From NCBI RefSeq assembly GCF_003342675.1, contig NZ_CP031148.1:1240001-1304000 (forward strand): DNA of 64,000 bases. Direction: 5' to 3'. Below, piece after piece: positions 25,201-48,790 of the stretch (position 1 is the stretch's first letter; each line of letters starts with the position of its first letter). This DNA is from Haloplanus rubicundus. GTDB lineage: Archaea; Halobacteriota; Halobacteria; Halobacteriales; Haloferacaceae. Made by a program: the position numbers and the translations under genes. Under the pieces are notes generated by a model. It had not been told where the DNA came from. It saw nothing but the letters and a program-made list of their open reading frames with translations, and ran no database searches.

Positions 25201-25413
25201 TGAAATCCTCTTGCAGTCTTGTGATTTGTTAAACAGCCAATTTTCGACGTGTCTGCGAAGTCTGTCGGAGAATCGCTCTCTTCTGCAGTTCTGGGAGATT
25301 TCAATAGAGTCGAAATACCATAATTGGCCCAGATGGAATTCTCCTCTATCATCTCAAACTCGGAAAATCATAAATAATATTACAGGTAACAGACCATTCA
25401 ATTGCTGAACACA

Positions 25414-26523: not shown

Positions 26524-26568
26524 GATTACAAACAGGGTATAGTAAGCCAATAACTGGTGCGGTACAGT

Positions 26569-27738
26569 TTAGTTGTGATCCTTGATTGCCTCCCGGAAGA
26601 TTCGTTCAATGGACTCGGCGTTCCGTTCCCAACTGAATCCATTAAGTGCTGTTCTCTGTGCCCGATCTCCGATGTGGCGCCGTAACTCTGGATTTTCATT
26701 GAGTTCCCGGATCAGATCAGTGATTGCTCCTGAATTCTGAGGTGGGACTAAGAATCCCGTCTCTCTATGTGTAATGAAGTCGGCTGGACCCTCTCCTTCA
26801 CAAGCAATAACGGGTAGTCCGCAGGCCATCGCTTCCAGATACGCAATCCCGAATGCTTCCTCATAACTTGGAAGAACGAACAAGTCTGCTGATTTGAGGT
26901 ACGAGAAGACTTCCTCGTGATCAACTTTTCCAATAAAGGAGACTTTATTGTCTATATTGAGTGTCTTAGCCTTTTCTTCAAGATCTGATTGAAGCGGACC
27001 GTCTCCAATAACCACATACTCATAATCAAGCGAAAGATCTGATAAGGCTTCTAAGACGTATCTATGGCCTTTTTCAGGATCTAAATTCCCGACACTAGTG
27101 ATTCGCAGACTCGATCTCGGCGCTTCGACTGACTGAGCGTTAAGTGCTTTTTCTACGGAGAACCCATTATGTACGACTTCAACTTTTTTCAAATCATCAA
27201 AATTATCAGCATATATTCGTTTTAATTTTCCACTGTTGAGTATAATTCGAGTTGACGATTGAAAAACTGATCTTATTTGGGATTTACAAAACCTGTGATG
27301 AATCGAGTGTTGAAGATCAAAGCCGTGTACTGTTGTCACTAGTGGTACGTCTAATGAATGAGCGAGTTTCAACGACCCAAATCCATCAGGAAGTGCTACG
27401 TGTGCGTTGATCAGATCCGCGGATTCGAATAGATGTCTATTTTGATATAATGTCCTCCGGAAGGAGTACGCAACGATCGGCAACGTCCCCAAGCATGGAA
27501 GCGACCAGTAGCGCGGATAGTGGACAGTGATATCATCATATGAGTCCGACTCAGGGACATTCTTTGAGGAGGTGCGATTAAGAATCTTGGCGGCGATCTC
27601 TGGCACCCTAGGAATGGGAGAAATCACTTCCACATTGTGTCCTCTCTCGGACAAGGCCCTGGCCTGTTGTAGAACATATATCCCCCTAACGGAGTCGTTT
27701 GGGGTCGGAAACAGATGTGAAACGATGAGGATATCCAT
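26569..27738 (-). CDS. Family 4 (GT-B) glycosyltransferase
   Basis: 389 aa starting at ATG 27738 (MDILIVSHLFPTPNDS). Typical GT4 features are GIYVLQQARALSERGHNVEVI, split over the first beta-alpha unit, TTVHGFDL, VHNGFSVE, TSVGNLDPEKGH, and the retaining E(x7)E motif in SYEEAFGIAYLEAMACGLPV. It is better conserved than its downstream neighbour. It should use a nucleotide-sugar donor on the cytoplasmic side; donor identity is not readable. Confidence 0.9.
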   Translation of the reverse strand: MDILIVSHLFPTPNDSVRGIYVLQQARALSERGHNVEVISPIPRVPEIAAKILNRTSSKNVPESDSYDDITVHYPRYWSLPCLGTLPIVAYSFRRTLYQNRHLFESADLINAHVALPDGFGSLKLAHSLDVPLVTTVHGFDLQHSIHHRFCKSQIRSVFQSSTRIILNSGKLKRIYADNFDDLKKVEVVHNGFSVEKALNAQSVEAPRSSLRITSVGNLDPEKGHRYVLEALSDLSLDYEYVVIGDGPLQSDLEEKAKTLNIDNKVSFIGKVDHEEVFSYLKSADLFVLPSYEEAFGIAYLEAMACGLPVIACEGEGPADFITHRETGFLVPPQNSGAITDLIRELNENPELRRHIGDRAQRTALNGFSWERNAESIERIFREAIKDHN

Positions 27739-28026
27739 TGTGTGTATAAATTACTGGGAGTCGCGCTGCATCATCAATCCACCTGCTCTATCCTAAGGCC
27801 TGCATTGCTTTTTTCTGATTTTCTGACGGAAATATTAATGTCGTTCGCCGACAGCTGTGGTGTTGATAGGTGTATGTGGATCAATGATTGTGAACGAAAG
27901 TTCTGGTGAGGACTGAGAGGCGATCACCGAATAAACGTGAGATCGTAGGCCGTTGATTGGGACTACGGCGAGGAGTCTTCTGCGATGATATCGGTGAAAC
28001 GGTGTCTGTCCCAATCTGATACCTCA

Positions 28027-28442
28027 TGAGCGTGTCATAGAACCCATCTCATAGCTTCTCACAGCCTGGATTGTTTCCTTGCTCGTAGTTGGTGATTGCA
28101 ACGACGAGTCGTAGACAGAGCGCAACGAACACTTCTGTTCGTGGGTGGACGCGGCCTCGGGCACGTCCGCGCCCGAGGTCGCACCCTCGTAGTAACAGTG
28201 CAGAAAGCCGCAAAAAAGGTCTGGTGGCTCGTGAACTCGTGTTCGCCCCCGCTTCGAGGGGGCGAACACGTCGTAATCCAGCAGAAACCCGAACTCAAGG
28301 TGTTCAAACAGCGGTACTGTTTCGGTCGCCGCTGCATTCAAGAAGTCGTTGACTGAAGCTACGTCTTGCAGGGTGTCGGAGCTGGTGGATACAGTATCCA
28401 AGCCCCGCGGTCTCCCACGGGAGGCTTTCTATGACACGCTCA
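28027..28442 (-). mobile_element. 416-bp internally deleted IS (MITE-like) with 16-bp inverted ends
   Basis: Perfect 16-bp terminal inverted repeats, TGAGCGTGTCATAGAA at 28027-28042 and its complement at 28427-28442, enclose a collapsed transposase frame on the minus strand. The frame starts MDTVSTSSDTLQDVASVNDF, runs through PDLFCGFLHCYYEG, then jumps to FVALCLRLVVAITNYEQ, the end of a haloarchaeal DDE transposase. The catalytic middle is deleted. It could still be moved in trans by a full-length relative. No target-site duplication was obvious next to the ends. Confidence 0.85.
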
Positions 28443-28632
28443 CCGCGTTATAATCTTAAGAATATGCGGGTACCCCGGTGCGTGCGAGAGGTGGCGATTT
28501 GAATTCTATGAAATACTGCTCAAAGTGACTGTCTACGATCTCCGCTTGGATATCCCTCATCGGTAAAATTCTGTACCCTATTCCGCAGCTACAGAGACTA
28601 CCTTTATTATTCCTGAAAAGGTATTCGCTGTC

Positions 28633-30126
28633 ATGACCCGACCTAATATTCTGTTTCTCATTTGGGATTCTGCCCGGTTTGATTATGTAATGGAACACGC
28701 CCCGACATTTTCCCAGTTGGCGTCAGACAATCTCTCATTCACAAATGCCATTGCCCCAGCCACGTGGTCACTGCCGTCACATACCTCATTATTCACCGGC
28801 ACGTTACCGCACACACATGGTACGTACCATCTGAACCATTCAGTCTCGGAACTTACAATTGGCTCAGAGTTAGAAAAAAAAACATATCAGCGCTTTGCAG
28901 TCTCTGGCAACGGCTTTTTTTCCATTAGATACGGATTTGAGACCGCATTCGATGAATTCTATTATTCGCGTGAGCGCTTCCAGCCATTCGGTAGTGGACT
29001 TCCTGCACGAAGCAGAGCATATCATATGCGACGCCAAGGCTATTCTAAACCCGATATTTTCTTCGATCTGTTAAAATCTTCATTTAAGCATGAAAACACG
29101 ATAGGAAGCCTCGCAAATCTCGGCGATCTGCTGCGAACTGAATTGCATAACTTGATGGCTGCGCACACATCAATATCCGCCAGACCATCTGAATACTCCG
29201 CAAAACGTAACACGCAAAAATTACTAGAAATTCTCCAGCGGGCCCAGGGATCTGATCGGCCGTGGTTTATCGTCGCGAATTATATGGACTGCCACCGGCC
29301 GTACGATCCGCCCGCAGAGTTTCGGAAGAAACATCTTGATGACGATATTTCACCGTCCGAATTTGATCGCTTGACAGAGAAATTGATGCCACCATGGAAG
29401 TTTATTGAAGCTGTAGATAGCGGAGAGGAAATTTCGGAAACGGATCTTCGGATGATTCGCCAGCTGTACGCTGCCGAGGTTGAACGTGTTGATACACATC
29501 TAAAACAACTACTAACAGAATTGGAAGCCAACAGCATGCGTGATAATACACTTATTATTGTGACCGCCGATCACGGCGAGAATCTTGGTGAACAAGACTC
29601 CTTTGGACGGCGACGAATGGGGCATGAATCATCAGTTAGCGATCAGTTGCTTCATGTACCCTTATTGATTGCCCACCCTGACCTCTCCGCCCAGACTGTT
29701 GACCAACGAATGTCAATCCGGGCGCTCCATGATCTGATAATTCGACTGGATTCAGGAAAATTGCAATCGGATGATGTACTATCTACACTACTTCCTGATC
29801 CAGGCACACCAATATTAGCAGAATACCCCATTGTTGGCGGTGAGGAAATACGTGAGAAATACCCGAAAGCAAGTGAGGAATCACTCGCTGATCGACTAAG
29901 CCGTCATACGGTAGTTGGATATCTGGATGACTGGAAGTTGGTGGCCAGTTCAGGCGGGGATCGTCACGCGTGGCGCGCGGGCGCGCCCAAAAATGTCAGG
30001 GAGGCACCAGATATTGTCCGCAACTATGTTGAGGGGGCCCTTGAAAAATTGACGCAACAGCACCCGCCGACATCAGGCGTAACTGCACAGAAGCAAGAAG
30101 AGCTTGAAGCGTTGGGGTATCTTTGA
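28633..30126 (+). CDS. Sulfatase/alkaline-phosphatase-superfamily hydrolase
   Basis: 497 aa, cytoplasmic by sequence (no signal peptide). The N-terminus NILFLIWDSARFDYV supplies the first metal ligand. The active-site block ATWSLPSHTSLFTGTLPHTHG has Ser where sulfatases have Cys/Ser before xPxR, and His replaces the Arg. The second metal site is VTADHGENLGEQ. Such proteins in polysaccharide clusters act as sulfatases, phosphodiesterases or phospho-group transferases. It is transcribed divergently from the upstream glycosyltransferases and just beyond a MITE-like element. Substrate is unknown. Confidence 0.88.
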   Translation: MTRPNILFLIWDSARFDYVMEHAPTFSQLASDNLSFTNAIAPATWSLPSHTSLFTGTLPHTHGTYHLNHSVSELTIGSELEKKTYQRFAVSGNGFFSIRYGFETAFDEFYYSRERFQPFGSGLPARSRAYHMRRQGYSKPDIFFDLLKSSFKHENTIGSLANLGDLLRTELHNLMAAHTSISARPSEYSAKRNTQKLLEILQRAQGSDRPWFIVANYMDCHRPYDPPAEFRKKHLDDDISPSEFDRLTEKLMPPWKFIEAVDSGEEISETDLRMIRQLYAAEVERVDTHLKQLLTELEANSMRDNTLIIVTADHGENLGEQDSFGRRRMGHESSVSDQLLHVPLLIAHPDLSAQTVDQRMSIRALHDLIIRLDSGKLQSDDVLSTLLPDPGTPILAEYPIVGGEEIREKYPKASEESLADRLSRHTVVGYLDDWKLVASSGGDRHAWRAGAPKNVREAPDIVRNYVEGALEKLTQQHPPTSGVTAQKQEELEALGYL

Positions 30127-30176
30127 TCAACATCACGTAGGCGAAATGTATCTGTGATGGTTGAGCTCCCAACCAA

Positions 30177-30371
30177 CTAAATCCTGACATCCCAGTCGTA
30201 CTTAGTGAGAGACTTGTTAAGGGTGCGTTTGCGCTTTGCTGGAAGGACCTCTGGTGCGATACCTGTCATGATCTTGTTGCTGGTCGCAACAAGACTTGTA
30301 ACGTAGATTCTGGCGTGATGACGTTGTGACGGTGACAGGGGTTCGAATTCGTCGAACACATTCGCGGACAA
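30177..30371 (-). pseudogene. N-terminal fragment of an IS4-type transposase
   Basis: The frame reads FDEFEPLSPSQRHHARIYV, TSLVATSNKIMTGIAPEVLP and RTLNKSLTKYDWDV. This is the N-terminal segment of a family of haloarchaeal DDE transposases. It ends abruptly after about 64 codons, with no catalytic domain and no visible matching end. Confidence 0.65.
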
Positions 30372-30694
30372 CAGGAGACGCAGAATCTGTAGTCGGGATC
30401 ACCGTCCTTGCTACCGTCTACGTCACAGTCCTACTTCAAAGTGCAAGCCCGAGTAAAAATTTCAGCCCACAGTATCAGAACCTAAACGTGAAACAATCGT
30501 GTCGACTATAGCTAGGACCTTTCGAAATTACTCTCAGCAGTCTAGCCGATTTGGATGGTTCGGAACATACGGAGTCAATAAAACCCCCTATCGTTTCGCC
30601 TGTGGGCCTGTACTTGTTGATGAACGAATATCCGGAACGTTATTGTTTGATAGTAGTGCGTGGTGAGATGTCATGAGAATAACCCTTAAAGAAG
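30372..30694. other. Intergenic stretch with a possible gene scrap
   Basis: A 57-codon open stretch on the plus strand ending at TGA near 30666 encodes readable but startless peptide (FRNYSQQSSRFGWFGTYG, CGPVLVDERISGTLLFDSS). It may be the remains of a gene. No family is recognised and no start codon or promoter was seen. Confidence 0.35.
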
Positions 30695-31771
30695 TTAGAA
30701 ATTGTCGTTAGGGGATCCTCCGTCAATTAAATCCGAGGCGACTTGATCGGCGCGATCAATCCATCGGTTTTGTTTCAGTGTCTGTATTGCATTCTCTTTT
30801 TTACGCTGGTATAGCTTTTCATCTGTTGAAAGCTCGGTTAATGCCTGAGCCAAATGCTCGTAGTTTGCTTTGCACACAATACCGCAGTCAGAGGACTGCA
30901 CGAATGAAGCGACTTCATCAACATTGGTAGTGATTACTGGGAGACCATACGAAAGGTACTCGAATAACTTTACTGGCATACTTATATTATTATAAGTGGT
31001 TGGCTGTATCGGGATAATTCCTGCATCGGCGAATTGATAGAGGGAGTGTAGTTCTTCACCATGCACGTGATGGATCTCTGCCCAATCCGAATCAAAGCGA
31101 TCGCGGACTGTTTTCGGTAGTGACTGAAACTCTGCCTCACGACAAATAAGGATAAGAGTAATATTCTGGTTCTCCGCGGCTGTTTCCAAAGATTTAGACA
31201 GAAGCTCAGTTCCGTATTTTTTCGAGACACCGCCAACGTATATTACGCGCCTCAGCTGGGACGTGGATTTATTTGTTTCGGTTCGGTCTATTCCTCCTGG
31301 TGGAAGAGGCGTTGTAGATGATTTGAGAGAAAGTTGTTCGCCAAACGAGGAAGACGGTACGTATATGCAATCCCCAATCCTTGAGATCACGGATAGATCT
31401 AATCGATATCGAGCTTGTAGCTCCCAGTATTTTAACCCCGAATGGTCGAATAGCTTTGGGAACTGCCAATATATATCTCTGTAAAAAATGCCAGTCGGTA
31501 TATCTTTTTTCCAAAGGTACCAATATAGCTGGTAGTCCACAAGTGGGTTTAGCGGCCAAGTTGTGGGCTCGGAATAACAAAAACGGTATTCAGATTCGTT
31601 TTGTCGAAGATCACGAATCTTATCGCGTCTCTCCTCAGCATTTCCGATGATTGTTTCTACTGTATAATTCAATTGTTCAAATGCTTCGATCATCTTTGCT
31701 GGTCGAACACTTGAGCCGCTATCAAGATCTTCTAACGGTTGGGGTGTATGGAATAGTATTCTATCTTTCAT
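30695..31771 (-). CDS. Family 4-like glycosyltransferase
   Basis: 358 aa (MKDRILFHTPQPLEDLDSGS). It has a GT-B layout: a linker near VIYVGGVSKKYGTELL, and the donor-site block YQFADAGIIPIQPTTYNN...PVKLFEYLSYGLPVITTN. The start overlaps nothing and it is 3 bp from the end of the membrane protein gene downstream in coordinates (31775), so it is the distal gene of a tight minus-strand run. It is lower in GC than its neighbours at 39-41 kb, suggesting separate acquisition. Confidence 0.85.
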   Translation of the reverse strand: MKDRILFHTPQPLEDLDSGSSVRPAKMIEAFEQLNYTVETIIGNAEERRDKIRDLRQNESEYRFCYSEPTTWPLNPLVDYQLYWYLWKKDIPTGIFYRDIYWQFPKLFDHSGLKYWELQARYRLDLSVISRIGDCIYVPSSSFGEQLSLKSSTTPLPPGGIDRTETNKSTSQLRRVIYVGGVSKKYGTELLSKSLETAAENQNITLILICREAEFQSLPKTVRDRFDSDWAEIHHVHGEELHSLYQFADAGIIPIQPTTYNNISMPVKLFEYLSYGLPVITTNVDEVASFVQSSDCGIVCKANYEHLAQALTELSTDEKLYQRKKENAIQTLKQNRWIDRADQVASDLIDGGSPNDNF

Positions 31772-31774
31772 TGA

Positions 31775-33049
31775 TCAACTGTTCTCCTCCAGATCTATTA
31801 GAGAAAAGGCAGTAACTGAGTAGACAAATATTTTATTATTGGATGGAATGTCTCCAGATACCATAGCATTGAGTAGTGAAAAAACCAATACTGATAGTAT
31901 GAGGCCTGAATATATTGGATTATTCCTCCCGAATCGGATTATAATTGTAAATATAGTGAGTATATACGATGTGAACAAAACAAACCCTATCAATCCAGCT
32001 TCAACTAAAAATTCCAAGAAGATATTATGAGGATATCTAAATGAACCTAATTCATACATCGACTTGAAAGATCCAATTCCATGGCCGAAAATTGGATTTT
32101 CTATAAATAAAATGCGACTCTCTTTTATCATATTTATCCGCCCTTGCAAACTGTCTCCTGGGCCCTCTGTCAGGAGCAATTGGATCCTGTATAGAGTTTC
32201 CCCATCTAATAACGATGGCCCCAAAAAGAAAAGAATGCCGAAAATAACACCTGCTGCAACAGAATATTTTTTTATATTTGAAGATATATGTGTCCTATTA
32301 TTCAAAGAAACCCAGAAAAAGTAGACAATTACTGAAGTGATTGATGCGATCACTGGTCCTCGACCGCCTGTTTGTAGCATAAAGAAAAAGAAAACTATGA
32401 TAGAGATACTAGCAATGCTCTGCACCAGTAATTTTTCATAATTGAATATAATAAAAAGTGAGATGGGAATTCCTATCCCCAAAATACGATTGATTGTTAT
32501 GTAACGTTCGATGAAGTGGGGCGAAATTAGGTGACCAATGATCATATATTCGTATACCATTTCAAGAGCAACAGATCCTACAAATAGGAATATGATGATA
32601 TAAAATATCTTTACCAATGACTTGTTTCTTGAAAACAATATAGCCGAAAATAAAAGTATTGTTGGAAGTTCGACTATTATACGATATGTTTTTATCATGC
32701 TGTAATGTGTCTCCGGTGTCCAAAGACTTGTTATGGCATAGTACGAAAAGAGAAGAACGCAAACACCTAACGATTTGATGGTGATACGCTTTCGGCAAAA
32801 ATTCGGATAAATAATTAATATACCGGCTACCGCGAAGATTATTAAATAATAATAGCTTGCAATCTCTACTGGGGGAAATGGTATATAAACATACCTGTTT
32901 AAATGATACCTGAAAATATATATTACAAATATTGGAATAAGTGAGATTATGCCAATTGCCTTGGTTAGATTTAACACATTAACATTGGTTTTTTTTATCA
33001 TCGCGTCGCTATTTTCAATTGTCACTTCGACCAGGGACCTAATTTCCAT
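31775..33049 (-). CDS. O-antigen-ligase/Wzy-like polytopic membrane protein
   Basis: 424 aa with about ten hydrophobic helices. A long periplasm-type loop carries the ligase/polymerase signature (FGHGIGSFKSMYE then PHNIFLEFLVEAGLIG), and there is an RG-rich GGRGPV in the middle, as in WaaL/Wzy-type proteins. It would polymerise glycan repeats or transfer them to an acceptor outside the membrane. Its 5' end overlaps the GT61 gene by 11 bp, so the two are co-translated. The gene is very AT-rich for a haloarchaeon (many Ile/Phe/Asn codons ending in A/T), a strong sign of transfer. Confidence 0.85.
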   Translation of the reverse strand: MEIRSLVEVTIENSDAMIKKTNVNVLNLTKAIGIISLIPIFVIYIFRYHLNRYVYIPFPPVEIASYYYLIIFAVAGILIIYPNFCRKRITIKSLGVCVLLFSYYAITSLWTPETHYSMIKTYRIIVELPTILLFSAILFSRNKSLVKIFYIIIFLFVGSVALEMVYEYMIIGHLISPHFIERYITINRILGIGIPISLFIIFNYEKLLVQSIASISIIVFFFFMLQTGGRGPVIASITSVIVYFFWVSLNNRTHISSNIKKYSVAAGVIFGILFFLGPSLLDGETLYRIQLLLTEGPGDSLQGRINMIKESRILFIENPIFGHGIGSFKSMYELGSFRYPHNIFLEFLVEAGLIGFVLFTSYILTIFTIIIRFGRNNPIYSGLILSVLVFSLLNAMVSGDIPSNNKIFVYSVTAFSLIDLEENS

Positions 33050-34277
33050 TGTGAATTACTGAATCTAATATTTCTCTAAGCTTTTTAGTTTCGATTTCAA
33101 AATCTGCATCTCGATGTATTTTATCGGAATCTACCTGTTTACCAGATAGAGCTTTGTATTTATGGCCAAGAATATCTGCTAATATAAAAAACGGGGCATC
33201 TACGACTTCGCCGAACAGCTCAACAACAGTAAGGTTATCTGCCCAGATCATATTCACCAGTCCCGCTCCGTGTGGTCCGACAATTCCATCCGCATTATGA
33301 ATGATACTTATTTGTTTGGATAAAGGGTATTTTTCGAGCTCTATGATTTCGATATTATATTCATTCAATACTTGTTCTATTTCCTGAAAGTTTAGTACTC
33401 GGCGTTTATCTGCGCTCTGCCTTGAAATATAGACCCATTTTGATACTGTTTCTTCTTTGCTAACTTGTGCTAATAACCGACCGCGCAGCCATTGGATTGC
33501 CTTTGGCGTCGGTTCGGGAAACGATGGCACGATTAACTTTTTTACTTTAATTGTCTTTCCATTCCATTCTGTGTACTCATTTTCACTGTATCCTAATAAT
33601 TGAAGGGATTCTTTAATATATGCTGGCGGATCCGGGGGTATAATCAGATGTACTTCATTCCCTGTCTTATCTTTGTAATATTCAGCAGCTCGAATCTTGA
33701 GAAGATGATAGATCATCCATTGATAGTAGGTATGTGATCGCCCGTGTAGTATCGTTACGTAGGAGTAGTTCGAGCACTGTTTCGGCGATGAGAGACCGAA
33801 TAGGAGTGGATAAATCGACCCAGGATCCTTGCTGATATCCTCTATTAAACAGCGTCTAATTCTATCTACAGTGAATATTTCATTGTAAATATCAAAATCG
33901 ATCGTATCCCCAATCATTCCACCTCGCTCTGGATATGCCAAGCTGTTTTTTCCAGCTACAAACACATTAGATATAGATGCTACGAATGGATCTCTAAATC
34001 GATATCTTGGCTCTAAATGTAACTCAGTATATTCTGATGCACTTAGTGGTACTAAACTACTTTGTTCCTGGGGGGTTGGCAACTCTGCAGTATTTTCTAT
34101 AGTATAGTATTCAGAAGATAGTTGTTTTAATTCATTTGAATCAATCACAATTGAATCGTATAACAAATCAATTACTCTCCTTGCTGCCCGGGAGTTAGCT
34201 GAACGATACAATCGTTGAGCAAATTCTACGGGACCATCAGCTATTAAAATCCGAATTCCTTTTTTTATTAGAGACAT
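33039..34277 (-). CDS. GT61-family (DUF563) glycosyltransferase
   Basis: 412 aa. The family signature lies in the C-terminal half: WVYISRQSADKRRVLN, the NEYNIEIIELEKYPLSKQI region, and IVGPHGAGLVNMIWAD. An upstream ILHGRSHTYYQWMIYHLLKI fits the GT61 HNYFHW-like motif in position. The enzyme should use a UDP-sugar; GT61 members build diverse capsular and N-glycan branches. It is co-directional with the ABC exporter upstream and overlaps the ligase-like gene. Confidence 0.85.
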   Translation of the reverse strand: MSLIKKGIRILIADGPVEFAQRLYRSANSRAARRVIDLLYDSIVIDSNELKQLSSEYYTIENTAELPTPQEQSSLVPLSASEYTELHLEPRYRFRDPFVASISNVFVAGKNSLAYPERGGMIGDTIDFDIYNEIFTVDRIRRCLIEDISKDPGSIYPLLFGLSSPKQCSNYSYVTILHGRSHTYYQWMIYHLLKIRAAEYYKDKTGNEVHLIIPPDPPAYIKESLQLLGYSENEYTEWNGKTIKVKKLIVPSFPEPTPKAIQWLRGRLLAQVSKEETVSKWVYISRQSADKRRVLNFQEIEQVLNEYNIEIIELEKYPLSKQISIIHNADGIVGPHGAGLVNMIWADNLTVVELFGEVVDAPFFILADILGHKYKALSGKQVDSDKIHRDADFEIETKKLREILDSVIHNGN

Positions 34278-34321
34278 TGAATAACCTTTGTCATTTTAGC
34301 CCAAAAACATTGGTCGAGAAG

Positions 34322-36130
34322 CTACCGTTTATTTGATTGAATAGTATATAATCTTGCATACTGGCCATCACCATCTATAAGTTCTTTGTGCTCTCCCGAT
34401 TCAATAATCTCTCCATTCTCAAGAGTGTATATCCGGTCTGCATTCTTGATGGTAGATAGTCGATGGGCGATTGTAATGATCATATAATCTCGATTCATCT
34501 CTTCAATAGACCGCTGAACTTGGTTTTCCAAATTCGAATCGAGATCCGAAGTAGCTTCGTCAAGAATGAGTATGTCGGCATCTTTTAGTAGTGCTCGCGC
34601 TAGCGCGACACGCTGTTTCTGGCCGCCGGACAAACGTACCCCATCATCCCCGAGAAGTGAATCGTGACCATCTGGTAAATCATCTATGAATTCATTGACT
34701 TTTGAGATCTCGCATACTCGATTGAGCTTGGCATCCGAAACATCTCGATTCCCGAGTGTCAGGTTGTACCGCAGAGTGTCATTAAATACGAAGGGATTTT
34801 GACGAACTATGGCGAGCCGGTCGCGCCATTCTCTGATGTCCATCGCATTGATAGGCTCACCATTTGCACGGATCTCGCCATCTTTCACTTTGTACATTCG
34901 AGCGAGAAGCGAAACAATTGTTGACTTCCCAGCGCCAGACTGTCCAGCGAAGGCGACGAACTCACCCTTTTTTACCTCAAAGTTGATGCCACGGAGTACT
35001 TGTTCGTCGTCACCGTATGAAAAGTGGACATCATCGAACTCAATATGTGTCACTTCATCGGGTACAGCGATTGTTCCATGTTGGGGTTCCTGTCGAGCTT
35101 CAAGCTCTTCAACGAATTTGAGTGTTCGGACTAAATGGGGAAGATCATTTTCGATCTTATAAAATAGCCGATTTACATTGCTTGCCCTCGGACCAAGACG
35201 GAACATCGCGAATAAGAACACCCCTAACGACCCAAGAGAAAGATTGGCGAATGCCAACGCAAAGTAGATGAGCACGAATACTGACACCGCGACGATGAGG
35301 TTATAGAAGTTTTTGAACGCTGCCTCGTTCCGACGGAGAGATATCTGCTCAATAGTAAACTTCTCGATCGCATCCCTAAAATCGTCATATAGCTCCTCAG
35401 TAACGTCGAAGATCCGAACGTCGCGGATCCCTTGCGTTCCGGCTTGCACCGCCTCTTGACGTTCCTCGTTCGCATCGGCGACACGATCTCCGATATCGTA
35501 TCCAGATTCAAGCACCCGCCTGAAAAAGATAGTAAATCCGCCGAGGGCGATGCCTGTCGCAATCGTTAGCTTGGGTGCAATCACCAGCGCGATGAAAAAG
35601 TAAACGGCGGCGAGAAACATTTGCTGAAGAAACTGAATTCCGCGTGCGATGACTCGGCCCGCATACGTTGTCTGGGTCACGATCGCGTTTAGAATATCAT
35701 CGGAACCCTCCTCGTCGAAATAAGAGACTTCTGCATTAAGCGCATTCCGGAACGCTCGGTCTTGAAGATCGCGGATATAATAGGTTCGGACTGCCTCGCG
35801 GAGCCACGCAACAGTGAAGCTTGTGGTGTACCGTGCGACCATCACAAGTGACACACCGACAACCACGTATCTGAGTGTGAACGGGACACCGATTAGTTGA
35901 TACACGTTTACAAATACCCCGAGCACACCGTCTGCCCGCGCTGCAGGGTTTTCGAGTTGGACCAGTTCGACAATTGGGAGGATAAACCCTAATCCGACGC
36001 CTTCCAGTATTGCTGCTAGTATTCCAAGTACTAAAATACCAACAGTAAATCGAGGTTTGTACTGCGCAACGTCAAGTAGTGCGTTGATCTTTTCGAGTCT
36101 AGATGCTGGTTCAGAATCTGATAATGACAT
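34322..36130 (-). CDS. ABC exporter/flippase (MsbA/PglK-like, fused TMD-NBD)
   Basis: 602 aa half-transporter. Six membrane helices occupy about residues 20-330 (starting TVGILVLGILAAILEGVG). The nucleotide-binding domain has Walker A GQSGAGKST, Q-loop IVRQNPFVFND, signature LSGGQKQRVALARA, Walker B ILILDEATSDLD and the switch IAHR. Members of this group flip lipid-linked oligosaccharides across the membrane. Its position at the head of the glycosyltransferase/ligase genes supports that role here. Its composition is closer to normal haloarchaeal DNA than that of the next genes. Confidence 0.92.
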   Translation of the reverse strand: MSLSDSEPASRLEKINALLDVAQYKPRFTVGILVLGILAAILEGVGLGFILPIVELVQLENPAARADGVLGVFVNVYQLIGVPFTLRYVVVGVSLVMVARYTTSFTVAWLREAVRTYYIRDLQDRAFRNALNAEVSYFDEEGSDDILNAIVTQTTYAGRVIARGIQFLQQMFLAAVYFFIALVIAPKLTIATGIALGGFTIFFRRVLESGYDIGDRVADANEERQEAVQAGTQGIRDVRIFDVTEELYDDFRDAIEKFTIEQISLRRNEAAFKNFYNLIVAVSVFVLIYFALAFANLSLGSLGVFLFAMFRLGPRASNVNRLFYKIENDLPHLVRTLKFVEELEARQEPQHGTIAVPDEVTHIEFDDVHFSYGDDEQVLRGINFEVKKGEFVAFAGQSGAGKSTIVSLLARMYKVKDGEIRANGEPINAMDIREWRDRLAIVRQNPFVFNDTLRYNLTLGNRDVSDAKLNRVCEISKVNEFIDDLPDGHDSLLGDDGVRLSGGQKQRVALARALLKDADILILDEATSDLDSNLENQVQRSIEEMNRDYMIITIAHRLSTIKNADRIYTLENGEIIESGEHKELIDGDGQYARLYTIQSNKR

Positions 36131-39327: not shown

Positions 39328-39493
39328 GCTAGAACCCACCAGCAAAGTCTGGAGCGACTCACAGCCGATCAGCGCACGCTCTATGCTGGTGAATCTGGCA
39401 CATTTCGGTAGATGGGCGGCTATATGTATCTCTATCCCCACAGTCTGGTCGAATGGCGGTGAAGGATCCTGATTATTTTGAGTGGGGAACGAG

Positions 39494-41590
39494 ATGAGCG
39501 AAGCCGAGCGGTCTGACGAGCCAGCGGATCAGGCAGACCGACAACGTCACATTCCTGTCCGGACGGCGCTGTTGCTCGCCCTCTTGCTCGTCGTTCTCGT
39601 CCGCCTCCCGACGATTCAGGAGGTGTTTCGCGACGACTGGGTCGTCCTCGCTTCGAATGACCCCTACTTCTACCGCTATCTAGTGGATCAGACGCTGTCG
39701 AGTGGCCCGCTCCCATCGCTTCCCGACCGGGCGATCCGTGGTGAACCGCTTCTCGTCGCGACGCTTTCGGTGGCGGCGTGGCCGTTCGGCGCGGGCACGT
39801 GGGGCTCGGGGTTCGTCGTCGCGTGGTATCCCGTCGTCGCGGCCGTGCTCACGGCCGCGTTCGTCTACGGCGCCGCCACACGACTCACCGGCGACGTGCG
39901 AGTCGGCCTCGCAGCGGCTGGACTCTTGGCCGTCACGCCGGCGCACGCCTACCGGACGGCCCTCGGCGTGGCCGACCACCACGCCTTCGACTACGTGTGG
40001 CTCGCGCTGACGGCGCTGGCCGTGATCGAACTGCTCGCACGGAGCGAGCGTGACCGTCGAACGTGGCTCGCCGCGGGTGCCTTTGCCGTCGCGGTGGCTG
40101 GACAGGCGCTCGCGTGGGAGGCTGCACCACTCCTGCTCGTCCCACTCGCCCCTGCGCTCGCTCTCGTTGCACTGGTGGAGATTCGCCGGGACGGGCCGGA
40201 ACGGCTCGCACCGGTCGTCGTCGGTCTCGTCGGCGGGGCGGCGCTTGCCTCCCTCGTTCACCTACTGCTCGGCTGGCAGTACGAAGCCGTAATCTACGCG
40301 CTCAACCTGCTTGCGCTCGGGAGCGTCGGGTTACTGGCGCTTGTCGTCGCCGTCCGACGGGCAGGAGTGTCGTGGGCGTGGCTCGCGGCCACCGAGGTGG
40401 TGTTCGGCGTCGTCGCCATCGTCGCCGTTCGTCAGTTCCCGCCGGTCGCGACCGAACTGGAGTCTGGGCTCTCCTTCTTCTTGCGGAGCGGTCCGGCCGA
40501 ACTCGCTGGTGTCGGCGCCAACTACGGGGCGGTCGGCGTGCTCGTCATCCTCGGCTTCGCGTCCGTGCTCGCGGCGCCGATGCTCCCCTTCGCGGCTAAG
40601 TGGGGCTGGCAACGGCTCGACCCCGGCTGGTTCGTCGTCGTCGTGTACACCGTCCACTTCGGGGTGATCGCGGCGCTCCAGCGGCGATTCGCCGGCGAAC
40701 TCGCCCCCTTCGCCGCCATCCTCGGCGGCGTGGGCTTCGTGATGCTGGCGTCGTGGTTCGACCTTGTGCGGCCGCCAGTACCCCGACGTGACGGGAGCGA
40801 CGACACTGCGACCCCAGCCGTCGCCGCCGACGGGGGCGATGACGACGATGACCTCGTCGTCCCGGATCGAACCCGCGTGGCGCTGCTCGCCGGGCTCGCG
40901 GGCGTCGCCGTCGGCTCCGGTTCCCTCTACGCCGCACTCATCGATCGCCGGCTCGTGATCACCGACGCCACTTACGAGGCGGCGCGCTGGATCACTGAAT
41001 ACGTTGACGAGAGGAATATTCCCTACCCGCAGAGCTACGTCCTCAGCAAGTGGGGCCGCAACCGCGTCTACAACTACTTCGCGAACGGCGAGGCGGCGTC
41101 CTATGCCTACGCCGAGCGCACGTACGAGGAGTTCCTGTTCTCGAACGACGCCGACTCGTGGTACGACGAGTTTGCGGACCGCGTTGGGTTCGTGGTCACC
41201 CGGGACCTGCCGCATCTCGGCTTGATTTCCGCGTCGACCGTGCAGTCGACGCTCCACGACCGCTTCGGGAGCGCCACGATCAGCAACATCGGCGGCGTCG
41301 GTCACTTCCGGGCCATGTTCGCCACCGACGACGGCGCGCGGAAGGTGTTCCGCGTCGTCCCCGGAGCGACGATCCGCGGCCCTGCACCGGCGGAGACGGC
41401 GCGCGTTCGGCTCGCTGCCGACGTGTCGATTCCTGGCGACGAGTTCGAATACGTCCGACGGGCGACGGTCACGGACGGGACGTTCGAGGTGACGGTCGCC
41501 AATCCGGGGACGTACCGCATCGGAGTGGAGGAACGGACCGTCGAAATCACCGAACGCATGGTCCAGTCGGGAGACTCTGTAACCGTCTGA
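39494..41590 (+). CDS. AglB/STT3-like oligosaccharyltransferase, divergent
   Basis: 698 aa from ATG 39494; a GTG four codons upstream is also open. About twelve membrane helices occupy the first 480 residues. Family marks are the first acidic motif ASNDPYFYRYLVDQTL and the second, ADHHAFDYVWL, which coordinate metal and lipid phosphate in STT3. The soluble C-terminal domain follows. Where AglB normally has WWDYG, which reads the Asn-X-Ser/Thr sequon, this protein has YVLSKWGRNRVYNYFANG. It may therefore use another acceptor or be a specialised paralogue. High GC and a typical halophile composition contrast with the 30-34 kb genes. Confidence 0.85.
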   Translation: MSEAERSDEPADQADRQRHIPVRTALLLALLLVVLVRLPTIQEVFRDDWVVLASNDPYFYRYLVDQTLSSGPLPSLPDRAIRGEPLLVATLSVAAWPFGAGTWGSGFVVAWYPVVAAVLTAAFVYGAATRLTGDVRVGLAAAGLLAVTPAHAYRTALGVADHHAFDYVWLALTALAVIELLARSERDRRTWLAAGAFAVAVAGQALAWEAAPLLLVPLAPALALVALVEIRRDGPERLAPVVVGLVGGAALASLVHLLLGWQYEAVIYALNLLALGSVGLLALVVAVRRAGVSWAWLAATEVVFGVVAIVAVRQFPPVATELESGLSFFLRSGPAELAGVGANYGAVGVLVILGFASVLAAPMLPFAAKWGWQRLDPGWFVVVVYTVHFGVIAALQRRFAGELAPFAAILGGVGFVMLASWFDLVRPPVPRRDGSDDTATPAVAADGGDDDDDLVVPDRTRVALLAGLAGVAVGSGSLYAALIDRRLVITDATYEAARWITEYVDERNIPYPQSYVLSKWGRNRVYNYFANGEAASYAYAERTYEEFLFSNDADSWYDEFADRVGFVVTRDLPHLGLISASTVQSTLHDRFGSATISNIGGVGHFRAMFATDDGARKVFRVVPGATIRGPAPAETARVRLAADVSIPGDEFEYVRRATVTDGTFEVTVANPGTYRIGVEERTVEITERMVQSGDSVTV

Positions 41591-41797: not shown

Positions 41798-41819
41798 CAC
41801 CCCACCGTGTCGAGTGTTC
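41798..41819 (+). repeat. Origin repeat (ORB-like) 1
   Basis: CACCCCACCGTGTCGAGTGT plus TC. This is the best-matching left-side copy; with the others it flanks the orc1/cdc6 gene. Confidence 0.85.
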
Positions 41820-41896
41820 TCAGCAATTCCCGATACCGAACTCATCGGTTCGCGAGTGCCGAATGTTTCGAGTAGCTATTCGGGACTGCCTCCTCA

Positions 41897-41918
41897 CCAC
41901 TCCACCATGTCAAGTGTT
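41897..41918 (+). repeat. Origin repeat (ORB-like) 2
   Basis: CACTCCACCATGTCAAGTGT plus TC. Same orientation as repeat 1, with three differences. Confidence 0.8.
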
Positions 41919-42078
41919 CATCTCAGAATTGCTCAATTCTGTTATTTCGCTTAATATCTTGCAGTTCCGTATGCGGGATAGTTTCTGTTGCTATGGTCGC
42001 AAGTGGCTAAGAGAGTTCCTCTACCGAACCTTGCGGCGAAAGGTCTAAACAAGGCTAGATGCTGTGATTAACGTCCGA

Positions 42079-42100
42079 CACCCCACCGCGTCAAGTGTTC
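42079..42100 (+). repeat. Origin repeat (ORB-like) 3
   Basis: CACCCCACCGCGTCAAGTGT plus TC. Same orientation, 58 bp from the end of orc1/cdc6. Confidence 0.82.
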
Positions 42101-42157
42101 CGATAGAGGTTCTATAAGCTGGAAAGCTATTGATCTTAGCACTTTCCCCAAGGCAAT

Positions 42158-43378
42158 CTACTCCATTGACTGAATCAATTCTACGACACGCCGCGGTAGC
42201 GTGAGTGCCTCAAAGTCACTCACAACGTTAGCAACAAGATTGAGGCCGACAGCGAACTCGTACTCGTAGTACTGTCCTCCGGAACGGCCCTCGTTACGAG
42301 AACGACGGTCAAGGATACCAAGCATTGCAAGGTCAGCAAGGTGGTCATGCATACGACGGCGAACCAGCGGATCGATATCCGACTGCTCAGATATTGTACG
42401 ATACTGTGGGTAAATGTCCCGTACGCGAAATGGCCCTCCTGACTCAAGAGCTAATTGTAGGACCGCCACGAGCGAAAGATGTCCATGGCGTGTGAGTTCG
42501 CGCATCCCGTGTTCGATTTGGCTCCGCTCAAGTTTGTTCCGGGCTTCGTGAACATCGTCCTTGGTAATTTTGTCATGGCTTGCAGCTCGTGCGAGTTCGC
42601 CGGCTTGGTACAACAAATCAAGCGCTTGTCTTGCACTCCCTGTGTCTTGTGCGGCAATAGCAGCACATAATGCGAGTACGCCCGATTCAGTGGCATCATC
42701 AAAGAGAGCACCCTCCGCTCGTCGATCAAGAATTGCTTCCAGCTCGGGCGCATTGTACGGTGAGAAGTGGATCTCTTCCTCACAAAGTGTGTCTTTCACT
42801 TTCGGAGAGAGATTATCCCGAAAGCCGAAGTCATTGCTAATTCCGATTACTCCGGGTTTCGTTGCTGTTAGGTAGCCGTTTGAGCGCGCTCGTGGAATTT
42901 CATAAAGGATCTCATCGTCGGTACCAATGTGATCAATCTCGTCGAGGACGATCAAGACTGTTCCACCGACTGCATCGAGTTCCTCATACAGGAGATCAAA
43001 GACACGTTGTTGGGGATATCCAGTTGTGCTGATTTGATCCTCAGCTGGACGTAGTGTATTGACGAGGTTGACTGCTACTTGATACGACGAAGAGAGATTC
43101 GTACAATTAAGCCAAAACACCGACAGAGAAACATCGTCGTACTGGGCTGAGTCTTGTTGCAGTTGTTCGAGCAGATACCGTGAGACAGCTGTCTTCCCAA
43201 CACCAGTTTTCCCATATAAGAAAACGTTCCGTGGTTGGGCACCGTTTATTACCGGTTGGAGTGCGGTTTTGTACGCACTTAGTTCCGCCTCTCGAGCCAT
43301 GATTGATTGCGGTTGGTAATCATCCCGAAGCATATCCTCGTCGCGGAAGATATGGGTGTCACGAGTGAACGTCGGCAT
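42158..43378 (-). CDS. cdc6: Orc1/Cdc6 replication initiator
   Basis: 406 aa, full length. The AAA+ domain has Walker [18 protein letters not shown], Walker [11 protein letters not shown], sensor 1 [11 protein letters not shown] (the initiator-specific segment) and sensor 2 [19 protein letters not shown]-terminal winged helix follows ([32 protein letters not shown]), which binds origin repeats. It is probably the initiator for the flanking 22-bp repeats. Its start at 43378 lies about 140 bp from the nearest reverse repeat, so the initiator may also control its own transcription. Confidence 0.95.
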
Positions 43379-43517
43379 CAGTTACTCATACCTCTTGATT
43401 CAGGGGTAATAAAACCACTGCGTCAAGTGCGTCGAATGAAGATAATCGAAGATCTGGAGAAGATAGACTAAGCAATATAGACTGTATAACCACGCTATTC
43501 TACGATTCCACGTAACT

Positions 43518-43539
43518 AAACATTCGACATGGTGGGGTG
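43518..43539 (-). repeat. Origin repeat (ORB-like) 4, inverted
   Basis: AAACATTCGACATGGTGGGG plus TG, the reverse complement form of repeats 1-3. Confidence 0.82.
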
Positions 43540-43590
43540 AGTTCGTCACAGTTGATGGAGATATCCAACTCTGCCCCAACCTCGTTTGGA

Positions 43591-43612
43591 GAACATTCGA
43601 CACGGTGGGGTG
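43591..43612 (-). repeat. Origin repeat (ORB-like) 5, inverted
   Basis: GAACATTCGACACGGTGGGG plus TG. It differs from the complement of repeat 1 at one position. Confidence 0.85.
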
Positions 43613-44225: not shown

Positions 44226-44716
44226 CGAACTCTGATCCACCAAATAAAGAACCTGTCGCACAGTCATTGGACCACGACCTAGCCGACTCACAGCTCCACC
44301 GCTGTCTTGTCTGCGGTGTCGTTGGACTCCCAGAACGGATCGCGATCCACACCTGCCAGGACACGCCCAGCACCCACCCCCAGACGACTCGGATCACTCC
44401 CGACCCAGCCCACCCCCGGTCCCGCACTACCCACACAGCGACGCTCCAGCGGTGTGCAGACGCACTCTCACCCGTCTCCGGCGTCCAGGCCGCGGACGTC
44501 TGCACCGACAATCCCCTCCTCAACCATCCGGTCCTCGAAGTCGTCGGTGGCCCAGGCACCTTCGTCCCACCCCGAATTCTGCACATTCTCGCCACACACC
44601 ATTGTGGCCTCCGCGGACTCCACACGCGACAGCTCCCCCAGTCGTGGGTCCTTGAAGCGGTCTGTCCCAGCCCCGCACAGTCACCGGCCAGTACCACCCC
44701 ATCCACCCACCAATGA
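44222..44716 (+). CDS. Zinc-finger-like protein of the overlapping operon
   Basis: 164 aa. A single zinc-knuckle-like cluster is near the N-terminus: C28-x2-C31 (HRCLVCG), then H43-x-C45 (IHTCQ). A Thr/Pro/His-rich linker is followed by a region with further Cys (LQRCADALS, AADVCTDN, THHCGLRG). It overlaps its neighbours by 4 bp at both ends. Codons are strongly C-ending, supporting real coding. No family is recognised; it may be a DNA- or RNA-binding partner of the nuclease encoded downstream. Confidence 0.6.
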   Translation: MTNSDPPNKEPVAQSLDHDLADSQLHRCLVCGVVGLPERIAIHTCQDTPSTHPQTTRITPDPAHPRSRTTHTATLQRCADALSPVSGVQAADVCTDNPLLNHPVLEVVGGPGTFVPPRILHILATHHCGLRGLHTRQLPQSWVLEAVCPSPAQSPASTTPSTHQ

Positions 44717-45084
44717 CACACCTCCCAGACGACGATCAGCCCACCACTGAGACCGGCTTCACCGTCGAGACCGGTGTCACCCGCCAGCTCGAAGACGAAT
44801 ACTCCAAAGCCGCTCTCGAGGTTACCTCCAAAGCGACGGCCGACCAAACGCTCCTCGTCGGATTCGGTGGCCACTGGGGGACGACCACCACCGAACTCAC
44901 ACCAACCCAAGCCCGTGACCTCGCCCGCGCGCTTGAACACGCAGCCGAGCAACTCAAGACTACCCCGGAGTCGGCTCCAGAGAACAGTCAATCCTCGACG
45001 ACGGCCACTAGCACTGACACCCACGAGTCATCTCCCACACCAGACGACCCGCTTGAGCAGGAGGTGCGCCATGAGCGATCGTGA
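44713..45084 (+). CDS. Small acidic protein of the overlapping operon
   Basis: 123 aa. A compact core includes TLLVGFGGHWGTTTTELT and an amphipathic helix (PTQARDLARALEHAAEQL), then a disordered Ser/Thr/Asp/Pro tail. ATGA overlap with the upstream gene and 14-bp overlap with the nuclease gene indicate coupled translation, implying stoichiometric partners. No motif for catalysis is visible. It could be an adaptor or inhibitor of the nuclease. Confidence 0.65.
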   Translation: MTHLPDDDQPTTETGFTVETGVTRQLEDEYSKAALEVTSKATADQTLLVGFGGHWGTTTTELTPTQARDLARALEHAAEQLKTTPESAPENSQSSTTATSTDTHESSPTPDDPLEQEVRHERS

Positions 45085-45766
45085 CGACTCCGGTGACGAC
45101 GAGCCCGTCCACGACCCCCCACGCGACACTACCCGTGGACGGGGCCACGGCCAAGGCGTGTGGCTCGAGATCCAACTCCAGCAGGCCCTTGAAGAGTGGG
45201 GGTATGCCGCCGCCCGTCGTGAACCCCTCGTCGCACTCACCGCGGATGTCGTCGCCTGTCGCCAAGAGCCCCGAGATAAGCCCGCCGACTACCTCGTCGC
45301 CGAATGCAAAGACTGGCAAAGTCGCGCCATCGACGAGTCGGTGATCATCCGCCTCTGTCTGCTTGCCTTCCTGGGTCGGGCCATGCCCGTTCTCTGTCAC
45401 ACCTCAAGACTCACGGATCGGGCGTGGCGACTCGCCCAGGCCTTTGACGTCCGCCTGCTCACGCTTGAGGATCTCGACGGTGACGAGCTCCCACCGCTGA
45501 CTCGCAAGCGGCCACCCAAGGCGGCCGATATCCACCGGGACTCGATCAGCCCGGAGACCCTTCGGCAAACGCCGCCAGTCACACTGTGTCGACCTCCACA
45601 TGACCGGCAGGATGCCGATATCGAAGCGGCGATCTTCTCTCCCACCAAGAGCGCGCCGTGTTACGTGCCCGATCGGTCCGGCCACGAAGAGTATGCCGAT
45701 ACAGCGTTTTCGCGGTATCTCCGCCACGAACGCCGCAAACGGGACACACAGGTCGACGACCAGTAG
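45071..45766 (+). CDS. Mrr/PD-(D/E)XK-type nuclease of the overlapping operon
   Basis: 231 aa from ATG 45071. The restriction-endonuclease fold is recognisable: E33 in the first helix (WLEIQLQQAL), D59 in LTADVVACR, and E78-C-K80 in YLVAECKDW, giving D(x18)ExK. A helix-strand pair follows (VIIRLCLLAFLGRAMPVLCH, LAQAFDVRLLTLEDL), as in Mrr-like or Holliday-junction-type nucleases. The C-terminal 90 residues are proline- and acid-rich. As the last gene of the overlapping set next to an origin, it may be plasmid maintenance, DNA processing or a small defence system; which of these cannot be read. Confidence 0.78.
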   Translation: MSDRDDSGDDEPVHDPPRDTTRGRGHGQGVWLEIQLQQALEEWGYAAARREPLVALTADVVACRQEPRDKPADYLVAECKDWQSRAIDESVIIRLCLLAFLGRAMPVLCHTSRLTDRAWRLAQAFDVRLLTLEDLDGDELPPLTRKRPPKAADIHRDSISPETLRQTPPVTLCRPPHDRQDADIEAAIFSPTKSAPCYVPDRSGHEEYADTAFSRYLRHERRKRDTQVDDQ

Positions 45767-46695: not shown

Positions 46696-46813
46696 CACAG
46701 CAGCCGGTTGGCCGACTTCGAACGGGTTGATGCATTCGATCCGCGCAAGTCTACAGGCTGAGCAGGCCGAGTGCCTCGAGGCTTGATCCCGAGGGTGAAG
46801 GCCGTACGCTCCG

Positions 46814-47266
46814 CTAAACGTGTTCCGTGCGTTCGATATACTGCTCAATCGTGTCTGTCGAAACGTCGCCTGCCGTCCCAACGTAGTACGATTCCTCCCA
46901 GAACCCACCGCCCCACAGATACTCCTCCAATAATGACTCGTGCTGTTCCCACATCTCCCGCGCCGTGATGCTCTTGACCGTCCGCACAATCTTGCTCGGC
47001 GCGTGCTTCGGGTGGACGAAAAGGAACAGGTGTACGTGGTCGGGTGAGAAGTGGAGTCGTTCGAGAGACTCCGTCTCTCGTGATCACAAAAATCGGAGAT
47101 TTTCGGACGACGACAGTATCTCGTAGCCGTACTCATTGCACCCATCACGGAAACTCGCTTCCAGCGAATTCTCGATTGGTTCGAGGATGGCGTGGCGGTA
47201 CTTCGGACACCACACGAAATGGTAGTTGACGTTGTACACCGTGTGATTCAACCGCTTCTCACCCAT
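46814..47266 (-). pseudogene. tnpA: tnpA with an in-frame TGA stop
   Basis: The N-terminus MGEKRLNHTVYNVNYHFVWC and PKYRHAIL is clear, and translation stops at TGA (47084-47086). In the same frame it continues as RLHFSPDHVHLFLFVHPKHA with the HUH motif, VKSITAREMWEQHES, YVGTAGDVSTDTIEQYIERT with the expected Tyr, and a TAG at 46814. One nonsense codon therefore separates two otherwise intact halves of a 150-codon Y1 transposase. The junction peptide around the stop (NLRFL*SRETESLER) is longer than in the TnpA at 224, so a small insertion is possible. Confidence 0.85.
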
Positions 47267-47319
47267 ATCGAACCCACCCCACCAGCACAGTTAAGTATAT
47301 CCAAAGGATATACGCGGGT

Positions 47320-47475
47320 ATGATGAATCGCTTTGAAATCGACGGCGAGGAAGTTCTCGATGGCGAGGTCAAACCGTTCGGGAACAGCGCCCACGTCACT
47401 GTCCCGAAACGCTGGCGTGGAGCCGACGTGAAAGTCGTCCGAACCTCAGAACCCACCGAACAAGACGAAGAATGA
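47320..47475 (+). CDS. DUF2080-type small transposon-associated protein
   Basis: 51 aa (MMNRFEIDGEEVLDGEVKPF, then GNSAHVTVPKRWRGADVKVV). It has an AbrB-like single hairpin flavour (GNSAHVTVPKRW) and is found before tnpB in several haloarchaeal elements. Its stop overlaps the tnpB ATG (ATGA). The element at 59001 carries a close relative at 60249. Role unknown; it may regulate tnpB expression. Confidence 0.85.
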   Translation: MMNRFEIDGEEVLDGEVKPFGNSAHVTVPKRWRGADVKVVRTSEPTEQDEE

Positions 47476-48746
47476 GCGACTCACAGGCTCTCGTCAAGAC
47501 TCTGGATTTCCAGCTCAACATCCAGAGTGACAACGAGGGTCTGCTGTACGACGCCACACTCGAAGCCCGTCGAGTGTACAACGAAACCATCCGACTTGCC
47601 AAAGACGGCGTAGACTGGGACGCCATTCCCGGCCGCGTGGCCGACGATGCCAACCTCGTGAAGAACACGACTCAGCGCGTCGTTGCCAAGGCTCTCGGTG
47701 CGATGGAGAACTACTACGAGTACGACAACTTCGGACTCCCCAGTCACACCAAGGACGGTGCGTACCCGATTCGTGCGAACTACGAGGAAGGGTACAACCT
47801 ATCGCCCACCGACGACGGTGACGTGGCGTTCCGTATCAGCGCGAAGCCGTACAAACACGTCAAGGGCGTCCTCGAAGGGAGTGACTCCCACCTCGATATT
47901 CTCAAGACTGCGCTCACGAGAGACGAGTGGAAGATTGGGACAGCGGAAGCCCTCTTCCACAACGACAACGCTGAGTTGCACGTCAATATCACCAACACCG
48001 AGCAGGCTGTTCGAGACAAGCAGGACTCGCGGACGGTCATCGGTGTGGACGTGAACGAAGACAACGTAGCCCTCACCGCTCTGTCCGAAGACGGGGTTGA
48101 GAACACGCTAGTTATCGACTCTCCCGAAATCAAGTTCGAGCGCCACCGCTACTTCACGATGCGGAAGCGCGTCCAGAACGCGGGGAAGGAAAGCGTCCAC
48201 GACACGTTGGAAGGGCGTGAGGAACGGTTTGTCCGCGACCGACTCCACAAGGTGTCTCGGCACATCGTGGAGTGGAGTCAGCAGTTCGAGAAGTCGTGCA
48301 TCGTCTTTGAAGACCTCAAAGAGATGCGCGACAGTATCGACTACGGTACGCGGATGAACCGACGCTTGCACCACCTCCCGTTCCGCGCCCTTCAGTTCTA
48401 TACGTCGTACAAGGCGTCGTTCGAGGGCATCCCGACCGCGTGGATTAATCCTGAGTACACGAGTCAACGATGTCCGATATGTGGGCATACGGAGCGTGCG
48501 AACCGCAACAAGAAGCGGTTCAAGTGCAAGGACTGTGAGCATCAAGACCACAGCGACCGTGGTGCAAGCGTCAACATCGCCGTGAAAAGCGTGAAGAAAC
48601 TCAATTGGAATGTGCCTGCTCTCAACAGCCTTCCCGTTGTTCGAAAGGTGCGACGGCAGGCATCGGGGGCCGTGGACGCCCCGACCGTGACCCACTCGAC
48701 CGTTCGAGGCTATCAGGCCGATGGTCTGATGGGAGTGTCCGACTAA
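47472..48746 (+). CDS. tnpB: TnpB RNA-guided nuclease
   Basis: 424 aa and complete: D193 in GVDVNEDNVAL, E280 in VFEDLKEMRD, a zinc ribbon CPICG...CKDCE and D362 in HSDRGASVNIA. It is translated from an ATG overlapping the small DUF2080-type gene. Its C-terminal tail (TVTHSTVRGYQADGLMGVSD) is encoded close to the right-end hairpin. A degenerate second copy of the same gene is at 55153-55660. Confidence 0.93.
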   Translation: MSDSQALVKTLDFQLNIQSDNEGLLYDATLEARRVYNETIRLAKDGVDWDAIPGRVADDANLVKNTTQRVVAKALGAMENYYEYDNFGLPSHTKDGAYPIRANYEEGYNLSPTDDGDVAFRISAKPYKHVKGVLEGSDSHLDILKTALTRDEWKIGTAEALFHNDNAELHVNITNTEQAVRDKQDSRTVIGVDVNEDNVALTALSEDGVENTLVIDSPEIKFERHRYFTMRKRVQNAGKESVHDTLEGREERFVRDRLHKVSRHIVEWSQQFEKSCIVFEDLKEMRDSIDYGTRMNRRLHHLPFRALQFYTSYKASFEGIPTAWINPEYTSQRCPICGHTERANRNKKRFKCKDCEHQDHSDRGASVNIAVKSVKKLNWNVPALNSLPVVRKVRRQASGAVDAPTVTHSTVRGYQADGLMGVSD

Positions 48747-48790
48747 CCTACGGGAAGCCTCGGGGCTTGACCCCGAGGCGGTTCACACCC

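Follow-up and report, generated by a model that had tools for sequence, protein, structure and literature searches.

The window, the whole stretch of 64,000 nucleotides of Haloplanus rubicundus that was analysed, corresponds to C2:1240001–1304000 of the 3.40-Mb main chromosome; the other contigs have lengths of 225 and 147 kb. The locus of interest is built around an orc1/cdc6 initiator gene (orc) with copies of a 22-bp repeat (ORBs, full sequence GAACACTCGACACGGTGGGGTG) in the intergenic DNA on either side. The features are collected in Table 1. Moving outward from the start codon, the strand passes through a composite promoter site and a short spacer to two ORBs; beyond the other end of the gene lie three more. 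The Cdc6_lid (E = 2.8e-21) and C-terminal winged helix (Cdc6_C, E = 3.9e-20) domains are both identified by Pfam, and together with the AAA domain they confirm the gene between the repeats as a genuine Orc1/Cdc6.

Table 1. Features of the orc locus and its surroundings, in order of position within the window.
Feature	Position	Strand	Remarks
Surface-glycan cluster: MocA oxidoreductase, DegT aminotransferase, glycosyltransferases, sulfatase, ABC exporter	22690..36130	.	
aglB/STT3 oligosaccharyltransferase	39482..41590	+	Beside downstream ORBs
ORB, downstream of orc	41798..41819	+	Faces gene; reference copy, 0 mismatches
ORB, downstream of orc	41898..41919	+	Faces gene; 3 mismatches to first copy
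ORB, downstream of orc	42079..42100	+	Faces gene; 2 mismatches to first copy
orc1/cdc6 initiator gene, 406 aa	42158..43378	-	Pfam AAA, Cdc6_lid, Cdc6_C; relatives at 66–91% identity
orc promoter composite: two half-ORB cores at 9-bp spacing, GGTGG-like link, TTTTAT	43409..43440	-	Aligned in relatives with intact 5′ end
Spacer, 77 bp, 62% A+T	43441..43517	.	Candidate unwinding element; putative role
ORB, upstream of orc	43518..43539	-	Faces gene; 3 mismatches to first copy
ORB, upstream of orc	43591..43612	-	Faces gene; 1 mismatch to first copy
DUF6907-like gene	44713..45084	+	Adjoins orc in G011 as well
ORF, weak Mrr-type nuclease match	44774..45766	+	Below curated cut-off; true start uncertain; adjoins orc in G011 too
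IS200/IS605-type element with TnpB	46748..48787	+	Right end (48787) is right junction of 111-kb insertion

The first-pass annotation had described five such repeats, three on the forward and two on the reverse strand and all facing the initiator gene. All are present in the orientation claimed, and four of the five starts are as given; the second copy begins one nucleotide later, at 41898 rather than 41897. Each carries the G-string end (CACCCC/GGGGTG). Only 0.01 matches to the 22-nt repeat are expected by chance in the 64-kb window, and none of 100 dinucleotide shuffles of the window reached five. When the 20-nt core is sought with up to three mismatches through the entire 3.77-Mb genome, the five copies of the window are the only matches, which excludes the contrary case of a repeat scattered through the genome. 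The repeat search also returns a degenerate copy at 43415–43429, inside the promoter composite, a sixth ORB-like site that had been overlooked. This degenerate, inverted half-ORB and the first full ORB bound the 77-bp spacer, whose A+T content is only 62%. No Rfam family was found between 41500 and 44500 of the window, and PADLOC gave only very weak matches near the locus.

The locus has close relatives. Orc proteins with 66–91% identity are found in 33 of 392 genomes sampled from the order, and in one of the 11 other genomes of the genus (G011, 91% identical). A weight matrix derived from the five window copies was used to scan 30 complete non-redundant loci, that of the window included. Inward-facing ORBs occur on both sides of orc in 29 of these 30, indicating that the arrangement is a trait of a family of origins and not an accident of this genome. 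In total 97 upstream matches are in the '+' and 80 downstream matches in the '−' orientation, with 15 and 1, respectively, in the other orientation; part of the 15 wrong-way upstream matches are the promoter site itself. The matrix found no match in 1.1 Mb of shuffled flanks. The downstream cluster, comprising three copies here, is kept in the relatives. The proposal that this is the orc/ORB arrangement of haloarchaeal origins is therefore well supported, both by its conservation over the 30 loci and by published precedents. ORBs on both flanks have been listed for many haloarchaeal orc genes (PMC3528665).

Some loci depart from this geometry. In L118 (G308:C1:716388–717536) there is an in-frame TAG in the 5′ end of orc, and in L007/L106 the start is missing. 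These loci have kept their downstream ORBs and are without upstream ORBs and promoter site; they are apparently dying origins. In L018 (Halobacterium sp. KA-4) the orc match extends no further than codon 207, and the pair of upstream ORBs is present a second time at a distance of 8.4 kb (1301–1399 and 9716–9814), suggesting that this origin has been rearranged or duplicated. ORBs of the same family are also located 5–8 kb from orc, beyond the usual flanks, in L015 (4706–4783) and L010 (15953 and 18246–18315).

The promoter composite is related to the full ORB in a particular way. The core is kept and is doubled at 9-bp spacing, while the terminal GGGGTG is replaced by TTTTAT. Read on the strand of the gene, TTTTAT lies 30 nt before the ATG of orc, where a TATA box is expected, and is thus a putative TATA box. 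A block close to CAYTCGACGCAYTCGACRCGGTGGTTTTAT is found ∼27–31 nt from the start codon in every relative with an intact 5′ end. The composite is present in all 31 loci in which the coding sequence is open; it is clearly degenerate in L026, and in L107, L121 and L122 it was recognised by reading, as the regular expression alone misses it. More distant relatives of the Orc protein (∼55% identity) have many flanking ORBs with another core, GCGGACACGGTGG, and in their promoters it is this other core that is found, also doubled and joined to GGTGGTTTTAT.

The core of the promoter changes with the type of ORB. In family A the A core occurs in 25 of 31 promoters and the B core in none, while in family B the B core occurs in 15 of 16 and the A core in none; families B and C were grouped by reading the promoters, so these counts are partly by construction. 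The counts of flanking ORB-like sites are independent of that grouping, and give 180 A to 6 B sites in family A and 3 A to 127 B sites in family B, whereby the ORB sequence is specific to the Orc family. A further core is present in four of six promoters of the third Orc family, where the numbers are weaker. This covariation is good evidence for recognition of its own promoter by each initiator. A review assigns contact with the G-string to the AAA+ domain and the setting of ORB affinity to the winged helix (PMC7776575), from which a different, and probably weaker, binding is expected at a site lacking the G-string.

By analogy with the DnaA boxes of dnaA, binding of the initiator at this site may repress the transcription of orc. 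The full ORBs would fill first, and only surplus Orc would reach the promoter, a site of lower affinity because it has no G-string, where it would block TBP and stop its own synthesis. It is an evenly balanced proposition that several haloarchaeal Orc/Cdc6 families drive orc from a composite promoter of this kind (an initiator-specific tandem half-ORB without G-string, GGTGG and a TATA box) acting as a built-in sensor of the initiator level, and that, taken with the titration sites downstream, the whole amounts to a self-limiting origin cassette that is portable. Such a composite, varying as it does with ORB specificity, offers a simple way for the supply of initiator to limit itself, and one open to testing. 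The composite appears to be undescribed in the literature searched, a non-exhaustive selection; the origin module is of a known type and the composite is the part that looks new.

The half-site in the promoter might have no regulatory function, being either the inner arm of an inverted pair of ORBs around the unwinding element or a part of the basal promoter. Its inversion relative to the upstream ORBs and its position at the boundary of the AT-rich spacer agree with an inner arm, but in all loci the core adjoins the TATA box and keeps a constant distance to the start, whereas the distance to the next ORB varies from ∼30 to 150 bp, and the G-string, reported to be essential in the ORBs of oriC1 (PMC3936714), is missing. 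The occurrence of GGTGGTTTTAT in families with different cores also speaks for a non-regulatory site. Such a site is rather unlikely; inner-arm and regulatory roles may both hold.

The origin module has been acquired by this genome. In the Orc tree the window protein forms a starred clade (98/88) with the protein of G011 and those of three f12 genomes, f12 being another family; the enclosing clade (100/99) adds one f4 genome. The proteins of g14, a genus of the window's own family to which Halorubrum loci belong, lie apart from it. The f12 locus of G206 reads like that of Halobacterium sp. CBA1126. The grouping with another archaeal family points to acquisition of the module. In G011 the orc gene is ∼406 kb from the flank that here adjoins the island, so that its location differs between the two species of the genus. 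A viral source was rejected, as no relative was found in viral contigs and phage proteins are only ∼25% identical.

The surroundings of the module are foreign as well. The GC content falls from 0.68 to 0.47–0.62 between about 1.176 and 1.412 Mb. To the left, C2 1,159,075–1,177,602 matches 720,000–696,380 of a congener (G005), and to the right 1,288,788–1,290,634 matches 696,019–694,222 of the same genome. Thus 111 kb here correspond to ∼360 bp in the congener, which has a near-empty site. On the left the junction coincides exactly with the 3′ end of a tRNA-Gln(TTG) gene. This gene, which has an intron of 30 nt, is identified by Rfam and by ARAGORN with introns allowed; ARAGORN misses it if they are not. 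At the right end the junction has probably been altered by the IS element that terminates there, and variable sequence goes on to about 1.412 Mb. No second copy of the tRNA-Gln end that could serve as an att site was found in 400 kb around the locus, and neither an integrase nor a partition gene was found in the subset of the segment's ORFs that was examined. In the congener, the 3′ end of tRNA-Gln is repeated three more times in tandem at about 695,700–696,400 of G005:C1 (L137), the spacers being nearly identical, which would fit several integrations or excisions at this tRNA.

The segment contains glycosyltransferases, sugar-modifying enzymes, an ABC exporter, aglB and IS elements. An ABC exporter is near orc in L008, L013, G032 and plasmid pR1SE2 too, and nucleotidyltransferase or glmS-like genes are near it in G011, G199, G032, L016 and others. 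This apparent linkage, a tally over several relatives, fits published reports in which origins gained later travel together with regions of polysaccharide genes (PMC3528665, PMC4441112). The aglB/STT3 gene itself is GC-rich (∼0.65) and stands at the edge of the AT-richer glycan cluster.

Further orc genes are located on this chromosome at about 402 and 276 kb. The cumulative GC skew, computed over two 400-kb stretches, has a sharp peak at 403.75 kb beside the first of these, and this origin, judged by its skew peak, is presumably oriC1. There is no turn at 1.283 Mb, the position of the orc locus of the window. A change of skew at 42–44 kb had been proposed as a check on the origin, and its absence is one half of the outcome named as speaking against it; GC skew was therefore dropped as support for origin activity. 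The flat skew points to an origin that is recent, weak or dormant, and fits an inactive one too. The first-pass annotation had also held that the window belongs to, or has absorbed, an independent replicon. It does not belong to one, as it is part of the 3.40-Mb chromosome, where another orc gene has the clear skew peak. Foreign DNA has been absorbed, in the form of the 111-kb low-GC segment that starts at the tRNA-Gln 3′ end and is missing in the congener; that this segment was once a self-replicating plasmid is unproven.

The locus is best explained as a self-contained Orc/Cdc6 origin module that was acquired horizontally and is now probably a secondary origin of the main chromosome, though perhaps a weak or dormant one. 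The origin side would comprise the two upstream ORBs, the spacer and the half-ORB of the promoter. The initiator would bind the upstream ORBs, open the AT-rich DNA that separates these from the promoter site, and load MCM. The three downstream ORBs may bind spare initiator and damp initiation, as reported for oriC2D of Haloarcula.

It is improbable that the module arrived with the island as an origin and no longer fires, an inactive relic whose Orc is at most a DNA-binding regulator of orc itself. The initiator gene is intact, every ORB has been well preserved, and the promoter composite is retained in the 31 loci with an open coding sequence. The missing skew inflection is nevertheless in keeping with a relic, as is the existence of damaged relatives (the in-frame stop of L118, the lost 5′ end of L007/L106), and predicted origins are often silent or dormant in published replication profiles (PMC4595724). 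It is more doubtful still that the 111-kb segment is an entire former plasmid integrated at tRNA-Gln, with the module as its origin: the tRNA junction with the near-empty site in the congener, the presence on plasmid pR1SE2 of a close Orc and the same ORBs, and the precedent of an absorbed origin in pHV4 of H. volcanii would suit it, but a second att copy and integrase or partition genes were not found within the scope given above, the segment is a patchwork of IS elements and glycan genes, and the plasmid comparison that had been suggested as a check returns scattered IS, transporter and housekeeping pieces only, so that a whole-plasmid match was rejected.

As a probable secondary origin acquired with its initiator, the module resembles several known systems. 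The layout is like that published for oriC2-cdc6E/oriC2D of Haloarcula hispanica, where the origin lies upstream of orc and ORBs are clustered immediately downstream of it. In H. hispanica the ORB-rich region downstream of cdc6E is without origin activity and cannot be deleted while oriC2 is intact; it lowers the copy number of oriC2 plasmids, which the authors explain by titration of Cdc6E (PMC3936714). Negative control has been shown there (PMC3936714), whereas it is only proposed for the present module. There are 11 downstream ORBs in 722 bp in H. hispanica and three here, and oriC2 of Haloarcula adjoins an rRNA operon, whereas a 16S signature was not found in 400 kb around this locus. The Halorubrum lacusprofundi homologue has three downstream ORBs only (PMC3936714).

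The setting is like that of oriC3-cdc6D of Haloarcula (VR1), a strain-specific origin whose surrounding region differs in GC content and has many transposases and polysaccharide genes (PMC4441112, PMC3528665); here, unlike there, one edge falls exactly at the 3′ end of tRNA-Gln and a congener has a near-empty site. Plasmid pR1SE2 of Halorubrum lacusprofundi (NZ_KX906370) encodes an Orc that is 79% identical, with the same ORB sequence and the same promoter composite, six ORBs upstream and two downstream of the gene; that copy is extrachromosomal, whereas the copy in the window is chromosomal. In the laboratory strain of Haloferax volcanii the plasmid origin ori-pHV4 has similarly been absorbed into the main chromosome (PMC7776575). 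That fusion arose by recombination between IS elements of a known plasmid and of the chromosome, while the present segment has its junction at a tRNA and no plasmid from which it is known to derive.

Haloarchaea have several origins per chromosome and these are often swapped, which raises the question of how a foreign origin is tolerated. The locus is a clean case, in which a module with its own initiator, upstream sites, possible titration sites and a recognition site embedded in the promoter is located in a tRNA-anchored surface-glycan island.

Two further observations concern the neighbourhood of the module. At 45942–46695 of the window, 2.3 kb from the upstream ORBs, a gene for a TumE-like toxin (PF20126, E = 5e-7) overlaps a gene for an HTH protein of the HVO_A0114 family, and the two are likely to be a toxin–antitoxin pair. 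Remnants of another Orc/Cdc6-like AAA+ gene are found at 38528–38851 of the window and at C2:1,205,123–1,206,183. They have the N-terminal stretch VPDQELIVH in common, and are broken initiator-like copies elsewhere within the 111-kb segment.
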